Shown: positions 30,532-33,868 of the stretch, in pieces
How the letters are laid out: each line of letters starts with the position of its first letter
Position numbering within the stretch: the stretch's first letter is position 1
NCBI GenBank assembly: GCA_025965315.1
Contig: JAOPXD010000050.1
Coordinates: 1-33,868, forward strand
Reading direction: 5' to 3'
Length of the DNA stretch: 33,868 nucleotides
From: Marmoricola sp.
GTDB taxonomy: Bacteria > Actinomycetota > Actinomycetes > Propionibacteriales > Nocardioidaceae
The notes under the pieces: model-generated
Database searches by the model: none
What the model was told of the DNA's origin: nothing
The model's input: the letters and a program-made list of their open reading frames with translations, nothing else
Made by a program: the position numbers and the translations under genes

Positions 30532-31104
30532 TCAGGCGTTCCAGCGCGCCACGGCGGGCCCGTCGTGCTCGTACCCGAGGACCGAGACGGTCGCGGTGTC
30601 GAGGCGGAACAGGCGGCCGTCGCCCACCGGTTGACCGAGCCAGCGGGCGGCCAGGACCCGGGTCGCGTGCCCGTGCCCGAAGACCAGCACCCGGCCTCCG
30701 TCGGCCCGCACCCGCGCGACCACCCGGTCCAGGCGCCCGGCCACGGCAGCAGCGTCCTCACCACCCGGACACGGGTGGCTCCAGATCGTCCAGCCGGGGA
30801 CGGTCTCCCGGATCTCCTCGGTGGTCACGCCCTCGTAGTCGCCGTAGTCCCACTCGGCGAGGTCCGGCTCGACCACCGCGTCCGGGAACCCCGCGAGCTC
30901 CGCCGTACGCCGGGCGCGGTCGCGCGGACTGGTCAGCACCAGGTCGAACGTGATCGCTGCCAGCCGCGGGGCGAGACCGCGAGCAGCCAGCTCTCCTGCG
31001 GGCGTGAGCGCGACCTCGGTGCTCGAGGTGTGCTTCCCGGCCAGGCTCCACGCGGTCTCGCCGTGGCGGACCGTCCAGAGCTCGCCCGCGGAACCGTCGG
31101 TCAT
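30532..31104 (-). CDS. Histidine phosphatase family protein (phosphoglycerate-mutase-like)
   Basis: The 190-residue protein carries the RHGE signature (about residues 13-16, phospho-accepting histidine), the second arginine in SPRDRARRTAELAG, EWDYGDYEG, and the second histidine motif VLVFGHGHATRV. These are the catalytic residues of the branch-1 acid phosphatase/mutase fold. The protein is shorter than cofactor-dependent phosphoglycerate mutase and is more likely a broad acid phosphatase. From memory Rv3214 (gpm2), which acts as a phosphatase, is the positional equivalent. ATG 31104 is preceded by AGAAGG at a somewhat long distance. It is divergent from the MFS gene with 28 bases between. Confidence 0.9.
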   Translation of the reverse strand: MTDGSAGELWTVRHGETAWSLAGKHTSSTEVALTPAGELAARGLAPRLAAITFDLVLTSPRDRARRTAELAGFPDAVVEPDLAEWDYGDYEGVTTEEIRETVPGWTIWSHPCPGGEDAAAVAGRLDRVVARVRADGGRVLVFGHGHATRVLAARWLGQPVGDGRLFRLDTATVSVLGYEHDGPAVARWNA

Positions 31105-31132
31105 GGGAGGCGCCTTCTGGGATCATCTGCTG

Positions 31133-32332
31133 GTGACAAGTCCTGCTCCCGCCACCGAGGTCCCGGTCACGCTACGCCGCGCCCGGCTGGCCGTCGCAGC
31201 CGCCTTCGCCACCCAGGGCATGGTCTTCATCAACCTGACCACCCGGCTGCCGGACTTCACCGACAAGTGGAACATCTCCGACAACCGGCTGACCCTGCTG
31301 CTGCTGATGATGGTGCTGCTGGCAGGTGCCGGGTCGGTCCTCGCCGAGACGCTGGCGAAGACCCGCGACTCGGCCCTGCTGCTGCGTTCCGGGCTGGCCG
31401 GGATCGCCGTCGCCGTACCGGTGATGTCGCTGGCCCCGTCCTTCGGGTTCTTCATGGCGGCGATGGCCGTCTACGGGCTCGCGCTGGGCATGGTCGATGC
31501 GACCACCAACATGCAGGCGGTCGCCCTGGAGCACCGCTACGGACGCCCGATCCTGCCGTCCTTCCACGGCGCCTGGACCTTCGGCGGGCTGCTCGGCGCC
31601 TCGGCCACGTTGGCGACCTCGCACCTGTCGCTCGGAGTCGGTGCTGCGCTGGCGGTCGTCCCGCTGGTGGTGCTGACCCGCCCGTTCCTGCGCCGCGTCG
31701 GCGACCCGGCCGCCGATGCTCCGAAGCTGGAGATCCCGTGGCGGCCGATCGTGCTCGTCGGCATCGGGATGGTGCTCTTCTACATGGTCGACACGGCCGC
31801 GTTCACCTGGGGCCCGCTCTACCTCGACCACGTCTTCGACAACACCCCGAAGGGGCTGTTCGCGCTCGCCGTCGTCCCGTACCTGCTCTCCAGCGGGGCG
31901 ATGCGGTTGGCCGGCGACGGCCTGGTCGCCCGGCACGGCGCCGTCACCGTGCTGAGGGTCGGCGGGGTGATCGCCTCGGTCGCACTGGCGATCGTGGTCT
32001 TCGCTCCGGCCTGGCCGGTCGCGGTCCTCGGCTTCCTGGTCCTCGGCAGCGGCGTCGGCGTGATCGCGCCGCTCAGCTTCTCGGCCGCGGGCCGGATCGC
32101 CGGCGGCACCGAGGAGGACCCGGCCACCCGCCAGGCGCGGGTGGACGCGGTGATCGGCCGGTTCAACCAGTTCAACTACCTCGGAGCGCTGTTCGGCTCC
32201 GTGCTCACCGGCGCGGTCGGCAACAACGACCTCCGGTACGGGTTCGCCGTACCGATGGTGCTGATCCTCGGGATCCTGCCGCTGGCACGAGCCTTCGCGC
32301 CGCGACCTGCGAATTCACATGGCGCCATGTGA
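31133..32332 (+). CDS. MFS transporter (YbjJ-like), last codons supplied by a terminal inverted repeat
   Basis: The 399-residue protein has about twelve hydrophobic segments in two halves. The first half contains QGMVFINLTTRLPDFTDKWN (typical of YbjJ-type major facilitator proteins) and GMVDATTNMQAVALEHRYGR; the second begins near IVLVGIGMVLFYMVDTAAF. The substrate is unknown. GTG 31133 gives the best N-terminus; an open frame continues upstream antisense to the phosphatase gene. The last codons (Ala-Asn-Ser-His-Gly-Ala-Met-stop) lie inside the perfect palindrome at 32311-32336, which is the left end of the islet. The original C-terminus may therefore have been replaced by insertion. Confidence 0.88.
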   Translation: MTSPAPATEVPVTLRRARLAVAAAFATQGMVFINLTTRLPDFTDKWNISDNRLTLLLLMMVLLAGAGSVLAETLAKTRDSALLLRSGLAGIAVAVPVMSLAPSFGFFMAAMAVYGLALGMVDATTNMQAVALEHRYGRPILPSFHGAWTFGGLLGASATLATSHLSLGVGAALAVVPLVVLTRPFLRRVGDPAADAPKLEIPWRPIVLVGIGMVLFYMVDTAAFTWGPLYLDHVFDNTPKGLFALAVVPYLLSSGAMRLAGDGLVARHGAVTVLRVGGVIASVALAIVVFAPAWPVAVLGFLVLGSGVGVIAPLSFSAAGRIAGGTEEDPATRQARVDAVIGRFNQFNYLGALFGSVLTGAVGNNDLRYGFAVPMVLILGILPLARAFAPRPANSHGAM

Positions 32333-32368
32333 ATTCGGCACTCTGAACATCAGATTCGATGTTCATCG
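32310..32368 (+). repeat. Left terminal inverted repeat of the islet
   Basis: The outer part is a perfect 26-bp palindrome with GAATTC at both ends and GGCGCC at its centre (32311-32336), containing the MFS stop codon at 32330-32332. The inner part is TGAACATC-N6-GATGTTCA (32344-32351 and 32358-32365), a perfect operator-like inverted repeat. Confidence 0.7.
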
Positions 32369-32479
32369 CGATGAAGTGATGTTGTTCGGATCAATCCACA
32401 TGTGACTCCTGCGATCGAGTTGTTCACAAGGTCGAAGGCTGCACTTTGAGTCGAAGGAGTGGAGCCCGAACCTTGTCGC

Positions 32480-33445
32480 ATGGATGAGCTAATGCGCCTG
32501 CACAGTCACGGAGTGTTCCTACGTCGAGAAGCACTGGAGGTCGGGTACGACGACCGAGCCCTGTACGCCGCCATTGCATCCGGTGTACTTTCGCGCGTTC
32601 GCCACGGTGCCTACGTGAGTTCCGAAACATGGCGTGCGTCGGACGAGAATCAACAACACCTCCTTCGGGCGCACGCCGCTGGATTGGTCCACAGTCAGCC
32701 AGCAGAGCTCAGTCACATATCGGCAGCGATCGCGCACGGTATGCGGGTGTGGGGTGTCGACCTGTCGCGGATCCATCTGACTCGCCCAGAGCACACAGTC
32801 GGTCGTAAGCACCGCGACATCGCGTACCACCGAGGTGCCGTGGGCGGGGGCGATCAGATCTCGGGGACGCCCGTCAGGCCCGCCGCAGAGGCGGCGTTCG
32901 GAGCGGCGTGCCACGCAAGCGTCGAAGCGGGAACGGTCATCCTCGACTCGGCGTACCACCTCGGGATCTGCTCGCAGGACCAGCTCCGAGAGCAGTACGA
33001 GACGCACCGTGGCTGGCCCGGAACGGCCCGGCTCAACGTCACACTTCGTTTCGCTCAGCCGGGATCGCAGTCGGTCGCTGAATCGCGCATGCGGTTTCTG
33101 TTTTACCAATACGGCCTGCCGAAGCCCCAGCTCCAGTACGTCGTACGCGATGGTTCCGACCTGATCGGCAACACGGACTTCGGCTGGCCCGAGTACGGCG
33201 TTCTCGGCGAGTTCGACGGCCGGGTCAAATACGAGAAGTACCTGCGACCCGGCGAGACCCCGGCCGATGCCGTCATCCGGGAGAAACTGCGTGAGGACCG
33301 TATGCGCGAAGCGACCGGCTACAGCTTCATCCGCTTCACGTGGGCGGATTTCTACAAGCCGGACCAAACTGCCGAACGCACACGGCGTGCGCTCAGTCGA
33401 GGCAACCGATTGGTTCTTCCAGGTGACATCAATTCTGCACGATGA
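32480..33445 (+). CDS. AbiEi-type winged-helix protein fused to a DUF559/Vsr-like PD-(D/E)XK nuclease
   Basis: In the 321-residue product, residues about 1-50 (LMRLHSHGVFLRREALEVGY ... VRHGAYVSS) match the AbiEi antitoxin N-terminal winged helix. A middle region with ELSHISAAIAHGM (77-89) matches the AbiEi-like domain. The C-terminal part from about 198 is a Vsr/DUF559 nuclease: Glu201 in ESRMRFLFYQYGL, Asp233 in GNTDFGWPEYG, and GEFDGRVKY supplying Glu244 and Lys250; then EKLREDRMREATGYSFIRFT. Solitary genes of this type are widespread in actinobacteria, and no AbiEii toxin gene accompanies this one. ATG 32480 is chosen; GTG 32459 (7 codons earlier) overlaps a GAAGGAG box and is possible. 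Codon choice is less GC-rich than in the neighbours, a sign of transfer. Confidence 0.8.
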   Translation: MDELMRLHSHGVFLRREALEVGYDDRALYAAIASGVLSRVRHGAYVSSETWRASDENQQHLLRAHAAGLVHSQPAELSHISAAIAHGMRVWGVDLSRIHLTRPEHTVGRKHRDIAYHRGAVGGGDQISGTPVRPAAEAAFGAACHASVEAGTVILDSAYHLGICSQDQLREQYETHRGWPGTARLNVTLRFAQPGSQSVAESRMRFLFYQYGLPKPQLQYVVRDGSDLIGNTDFGWPEYGVLGEFDGRVKYEKYLRPGETPADAVIREKLREDRMREATGYSFIRFTWADFYKPDQTAERTRRALSRGNRLVLPGDINSAR

Positions 33446-33474
33446 ACATCAAATCTGATGTGCATCGTGCAGAA
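33433..33474 (+). terminator. Long hairpin at the 3' end of the nuclease gene
   Basis: Arms of 19 bases (33433-33451 and 33456-33474) pair with a single mismatch around AATC. The left arm contains the nuclease gene's stop codon (33443-33445). It can act as a terminator, and its core TGAACATC-N6-GATGTGCA repeats the operator-like motif seen at the left end. Confidence 0.65.
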
Positions 33475-33498
33475 ACCTCATGCTGCCATGTGAATTCG
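33440..33498 (-). repeat. Right terminal inverted repeat of the islet
   Basis: The reverse complement of this stretch aligns without gaps to 32310-32368, with 49 of 59 bases identical by hand count. The outermost GCCATGTGAATTCG (33485-33498) also occurs as a direct copy at 32324-32337, because the left end is palindromic. Confidence 0.7.
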
Positions 33499-33506
33499 CG
33501 GCTCTC

Positions 33507-33868
33507 TTAGGCGGTCGGACCGGCCCAGTTCTTGTCCGGGACCGGAGTGGGCCGACCGGGCTGCTCGCCGCCGCGTGCAGTGAGGTAGCTGTCCTTGGGG
33601 ACCATCACCTTGCGGCGGAAGATGCAGACGACCTTGCCGTCCTGGTTGTAGCCGATCGTCTCGACGTAGACGACGCCCCGGTCGTCCTTGGACTTGCTCT
33701 CGGTCTTCTCGAGCACCGTCGTCTCGCCGTACAGCGTGTCCCCGTGGAACGTCGGCGCCACGTGGCGCAGCGACTCGACCTCGAGGTTGGCGATCGCCTT
33801 GCCGGAGATGTCCGGCACCGACATGCCGAGCAGGATCGAGTAGACGTAGTTGCCGACCACGACGTTCT
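33507..33868 (-). CDS. MaoC-like hotdog-fold dehydratase (C-terminal part, cut by window edge)
   Basis: The visible 119 residues include NVVVGNYVYSILLGMSVPDI, ESLRHVAPTFHGDTLYGETT and VYVETIGYNQDGKVVCIFRR. The pattern matches the C-terminal two thirds of MaoC-type (R)-specific enoyl-CoA hydratases, which hydrate acyl-CoA in fatty acid or mesaconyl-type pathways. The HAPTF/VAPTFHGDTL segment after the long helix is diagnostic. The N-terminus with the catalytic Asp/His is beyond the right edge. The TAA stop is only 9 bases from the outer end of the islet. With the hydratase fragment at the left edge, both edges carry acyl-CoA genes, but nothing connects them. Confidence 0.8.
   Translation of the reverse strand, partial: NVVVGNYVYSILLGMSVPDISGKAIANLEVESLRHVAPTFHGDTLYGETTVLEKTESKSKDDRGVVYVETIGYNQDGKVVCIFRRKVMVPKDSYLTARGGEQPGRPTPVPDKNWAGPTA

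Follow-up and report, generated by a model that had tools for sequence, protein, structure and literature searches.

What is a single gene doing between two long inverted repeats that are themselves built of hairpins, in the place where two other genes converge? The question is raised by a stretch of 33,868 nucleotides of Marmoricola sp. (contig JAOPXD010000050.1), which we call the window. A first description of it, made without database searches and called here the sequence-only reading, saw a single-gene islet, an AbiEi-helix-turn-helix/DUF559 nuclease enclosed by 59-bp terminal inverted repeats, and conjectured that the nuclease may drive the movement or retention of the unit. We give a probability of roughly 0.65 to a related but broader reading: the unit would be one resident copy of a mobile-DNA system with two parts, a nuclease gene lying between inverted hairpin repeats and gene-less copies of these repeats dispersed elsewhere in the same genome. 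Its organization is that of a REPtron, the known association of a gene with repetitive extragenic palindromes (REPs), and its enzyme is unrelated.

The inverted repeats are real, and longer than the 59 bp first claimed. The left arm, a REP-like repeat unit on the plus strand (32304..32382), is 79 nt long and 80% complementary to the right arm, its inverted copy on the minus strand (33426..33504), the inner part of which codes for the end of the nuclease gene. Aligning the two flanks gives a score of 35.6, whereas the best of 30 shuffles reaches 14.8, and the left flank used as a query recovers the right arm at E = 1.1e-13 in the 4.07-Mb assembly. Each arm also has an inner structure that had not been described. 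In the left arm, hairpin 1 is a perfect 28-bp palindrome (32310..32337), of which a copy with two mismatches is found at C19:9262-9287; hairpin 2 (TGAACATCagattcGATGTTCA), read from the sequence and folded, covers approximately 32344..32365 and is followed by a partial third half-site that reaches about 32390. In the right arm, hairpin 2 (33433..33474) has 19-nt arms that are 95% complementary, and the left palindrome recurs in degenerate form within 33472-33505. As had been noted, the two arms enclose one gene only, on the plus strand at 32480..33445, with its ATG at 32480 and a stop codon that ends at 33445.

The hairpin ends also occur alone, in many copies per genome, and for this reason we speak of a family of repeats to which one cognate gene belongs, and not only of a single-gene islet. 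In the window assembly, gene-less relatives of the left arm, or solos, are found at C19:9216-9294 and C50:4788-4863, with a partial one at C104:39240-39278. When 18 left arms were searched together against 16 congeners, the 13 gene-carrying genomes all had matches; the three in which the gene was not found at E ≤ 1e-30 (G005, G007 and G013) had no repeat matches. The matching is specific to each genome: among the matches listed for the congeners, 150 of 150 are to the searched genome's own arm, 17 being the query arms themselves, and a wider comparison of 15 arms with 14 genomes from a broad range of actinobacterial groups gives the same proportion, 150/150 among the matches listed, with 15 self rows. 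Own-arm matching is seen, within these listed matches, in 27 of the 27 genomes with matches (13 congeners and 14 others). A rough gene caller placed 38 solos as follows: 16 in convergent gaps, 16 in tandem gaps, one in a divergent gap, two possibly inside genes and another three in no assignable position.

If the repeats belong with the gene, they should travel with its homologues, a check proposed with the sequence-only reading, and they do. A search of 24 congener genomes at E ≤ 1e-30 yields 37 matches in 17 genomes, and 25 of 30 congener loci are bounded by inverted repeats that score well above shuffles; the five that are not are L002, L037, L038 and L048 (one split gene), and L041, at a contig edge. 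A scan of named genomes kept 80 loci, and 73 were assessed after setting aside seven with short flanks. The flank alignment scores 20 or more in 56 of them; far flanks used as a control do so in 0/69 cases (maximum 16), and cross-locus pairs have a 99th percentile of 22.5 and a maximum of 41. With flanks of 1500 bases, strong repeats appear in six of the remaining 17 loci (L063, L069, L070, L074, L105 and L066). Leaving out L066, where the left copy sits past a uppS-type gene, the total comes to 61 of 73, and the repeat-bounded loci span Nocardioidaceae, Jiangella, Skermania, Pseudonocardia, Aeromicrobium, Hoyosella, Phytoactinopolyspora and others.

Some of these late additions have contents of their own. 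The nuclease reading frame of L063 is interrupted. In L069, L070 and L074, about 570 extra bases separate the gene from the right arm; a second frame of 187 amino acids, possibly cargo, lies inside the repeat-bounded unit at L069:3927-4490, and its GMPGVGKST stretch is presumably a P-loop kinase motif. In L105, a frame resembling mycothiol maleylpyruvate isomerase (L105:3934-4584) separates the nuclease gene from the right arm.

The two arms are alike within one locus and unlike between loci, the repeat sequence varying by genome. With RNA parameters, arms fold better than dinucleotide shuffles (z ≤ -2) in 48 of 56 loci, against 1/55 in the control. Under a strict stem measure, an early stem corresponding to hairpin 1 has at least 8 pairs in 28/53 arms (control 1/52), and a later one, corresponding to hairpin 2, at least 10 pairs in 15/53 (control 0). 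By eye, a third partial half-site closes many arms, and the 5-mers TCCCC, CCCCG, CCCGG, CGGTT and TTCAC are enriched in their outer parts. In one solo family of 16 copies in G016, 84.6% of cells pair, compared with 30-51% when slid.

Does anything move? The sequence-only reading suggested looking for an empty site in a relative, and such sites exist. Occupied in the window, the site is nearly closed in G005, with 8 nt between the two genes, and G012, G017 and G018 have a gap of 28-54 nt where the repeat is not there. In three others (G006, G016 and G011) the site lacks the gene but contains a hairpin repeat. This is the situation in which, by the same reading, the repeats might be ordinary terminators of the neighbouring genes; however, each of the three repeats resembles its own genome's gene-flanking arms elsewhere (by eye; for G016 also by search), and ordinary terminators would not account for that likeness. 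The conjecture of a repeat-bounded unit whose own cutter may move it therefore survives the checks proposed with it, with the amendment that the unit is also one member of a repeat family. Two further states of gaps of this kind were observed. G013, where the gene was not found, has at the window site (L134, G013:C24:4000-5200) a double hairpin (GGTTGAGGAGG.../CTCGAAACC...) that is unrelated and may belong to another repeat family, and G022 (C510, L139) has there a solo hairpin repeat beside a gene that by eye resembles an ornithine cyclodeaminase. Short arrays of other sequence, tandem or hairpin in form and built for example of GAGCGGGCTCAGATGTCCC units, occupy the same type of gap after stop codons at L147 (G020), L144 (G019), L145 (G023) and L203 (G002).

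Other sites and the gene tree also record changes. The site of the gene copy on C159 of the window genome is closed in G013 and nearly closed in G017. Of 13 solos of G010, five are present in its close relative G002, five are absent and three are not decidable; at one of the five sites lacking the solo, G002 holds other repeats. In the gene tree, with sites assigned by eye, the window gene falls in a clade (99/97) whose other four members are at another site, the two other gene copies of the window genome, which lie at different sites, group as sisters (100/98), and two separate clades occupy the thiolase/SDR site. The gene itself is few-copy and, again by eye, often at the same site across species.

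The 321-residue protein was modelled with AlphaFold2 (predicted local distance difference test 93.7, predicted template modelling score 0.90), and it is likely to be an AbiEi-antitoxin-like DNA-binding part joined to a predicted C-terminal nuclease domain of Vsr-like fold. The first part (model residues 1-192; 32483..33058, plus strand) matches PF13338 (AbiEi_4) at E 5.9e-8 and, in a fold search, 6y8q; 17 of 18 family members have a PF13338 match. The second (about residues 193-311; 33059..33415, plus strand) resembles in its modelled fold the Vsr and I-Bth0305I nucleases, and acidic residues of the protein are conserved. The AbiEi label given earlier is upheld by these matches, and the Vsr-like fold supports a nuclease, but the DUF559 Pfam model has no match at E ≤ 1 in the 18 family members. 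The earlier remark that neither transposase nor toxin partner is present also holds: Pfam and the fold search match the only protein of the unit to AbiEi and Vsr-like folds and to no DDE, HUH, tyrosine or serine recombinase, and with a single gene between the repeats and a left neighbour of MFS type, the AbiEii nucleotidyltransferase toxin gene is not present.

Among known systems, the closest in organization is the REPtron, described as a gene flanked by palindromes whose own repeat family is dispersed in intergenic gaps, the gene being few-copy, the repeats many and variable between close genomes (PMC6006769, PMC3733652, PMC3116915). The likeness is in one gene between palindromic repeats, its own dispersed family in the same genome and turnover between close genomes, and hence a unit that works like a REPtron. 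A further mark of REPtrons is a GTAG-type tetranucleotide foot; the repeat units here are about 80-110 bp, and the 5-mers enriched in their outer parts are those listed above. The enzyme differs, an AbiEi and Vsr-like protein in place of the HUH/Y1 enzyme TnpAREP, or REP-associated tyrosine transposase (RAYT). Y1_Tnp (PF01797), the RAYT family, is found in 0 of 24 congeners by a search for this transposase family alone, which was positive in 5 of 14 control genomes; the unit is therefore not a REPtron by membership. The TIRtron/TIRYT, as described in PMC3733652, is a RAYT-like gene within long terminal inverted repeats, the repeat being also a family in some genomes; that arrangement is shared, with a tyrosine HUH enzyme there and an AbiEi and Vsr-like nuclease here. 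With the AbiE type IV toxin-antitoxin systems the unit has in common the AbiEi-type DNA-binding antitoxin part, but it has an extra nuclease domain, and its repeats enclose no toxin gene. By the fold search with the model, the nuclease domain shares the EDxHD catalytic fold of Vsr and of the homing endonuclease I-Bth0305I, whereas the DNA-binding part is another one and the gene lies outside any intron or intein, tied to dispersed repeats. Finally, classical insertion sequences and miniature inverted-repeat transposable elements also have terminal inverted repeats, but here there is no excess of target-site duplications (53 loci) and the unit has none of the recombinases named above. In the open-access literature searched, which covered no preprints and few subscription papers, we found no description of such a system.

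It is natural to conjecture that the nuclease is the cognate enzyme that spreads the hairpin repeats in its own genome, occasionally moving itself, and in some cases another gene as well, inside the same pair of repeats. Actinobacteria would then harbour a new class of mobile DNA, which converged on the REP/RAYT system from an independent origin; for this stronger statement we see the odds as even. The mechanism that we think most likely is the following. The AbiEi-like part would bind half-sites within the palindromes, and the nuclease domain would cut at or near the hairpin, either in double-stranded DNA or in a single-stranded hairpin at a replication fork. Repair or strand transfer would then copy the repeat or move it, for the most part to gaps that follow stop codons, solos moving more often and the full gene unit rarely.

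Several observations pull the other way. All the evidence is comparative, with no direct sign of the protein acting on the repeats, and Y1 is the only possible mover excluded. In at least 11 of the 73 named loci, flanks of 1500 bases still reveal no convincing pair of repeats, and the left copy of L066 lies beyond a housekeeping gene. Congener controls without the gene number only three. The two-hairpin plan is not universal, both stems being found in 9/53 arms by the strict measure; covariation within the G016 solo family is not above that of shuffles, 132/500 of which reach it; and target-site duplications show no excess, with 3/53 loci having a match of at least 4 where the cross-locus control predicts about 4.8.

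Could another enzyme move the repeats? The nuclease gene, caught between two copies, would then have a second role, such as limiting copy number or making its own loss harmful. Its few copies, often at a site common to several species, are unlike a freely jumping transposon, and every catalytic step proposed above for the nuclease is conjectural. However, the pairing of arms and gene in all genomes with matches fits a cognate enzyme best, and the one candidate mover sought, RAYT, is missing from the congeners; we hold this explanation to be unlikely. One may also ask whether the repeats need to move at all. They could be cis-regulatory, AbiEi-type operators and terminators serving the nuclease gene and its convergent neighbours: the AbiEi antitoxin is reported to bind to a pair of inverted repeats in its own promoter (PMC3985639), in the window the start codon is about 100 bases downstream of the left arm, and most of the 38 solos come after stop codons. 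Such a role would not account for the right arm that matches on the downstream side, for the dispersed copies with their genome-specific identity to the arms of the gene, or for the presence or absence of solos between close species, and it seems to us quite improbable.

A third alternative is the homing-like movement evoked by the sequence-only reading, in which the protein would cut the empty convergent gap, or a solo within it, and break repair would copy the unit in. Solos occupy many unrelated sites, which is not how homing behaves and speaks against it in its simple form. Neither an intron nor an intein takes part, and an informal look at empty sites reveals no obvious common sequence; we consider homing very unlikely. 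Each of these three explanations leaves main facts unexplained. As for the suggestion of a defence module, nothing in the present comparisons supports one.

The surroundings of the unit are much as first described, with some corrections. The left neighbour, on the plus strand at 31097..32332 (the start of the frame is not necessarily the true start), is an MFS-type gene as labelled (PF07690, E 3.2e-15). The right neighbour is an open frame on the minus strand (33507..33868) that the edge of the window truncates, its stop lying two bases away from the right arm; its label, maoC, comes from the sequence-only reading, Pfam finding no family for the 120 visible residues. The two frames do converge, the MFS frame stopping within the left arm with its last codons there. 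The insertion seems to have replaced the final residues and the stop of this gene (32310-32332); the MFS gene of G005 ends differently. In 200-base windows, GC is 0.52-0.70 in the unit and 0.67-0.76 in the MFS gene, a clear difference; the two windows wholly past the right arm have 0.65-0.67, so that the lower GC reported with respect to both neighbours is only slight on that side.

To our knowledge, Y1 HUH is the only type of enzyme that has been linked to REPs. Should an unrelated nuclease sustain this way of life too, systems made of a repeat and its cognate enzyme arose more than once. The many natural pairs, cognate and non-cognate, make the spread of such palindromes testable, and the actinobacterial genes that annotations list as orphan AbiEi antitoxins, a large class, would, if this is true, acquire a role.
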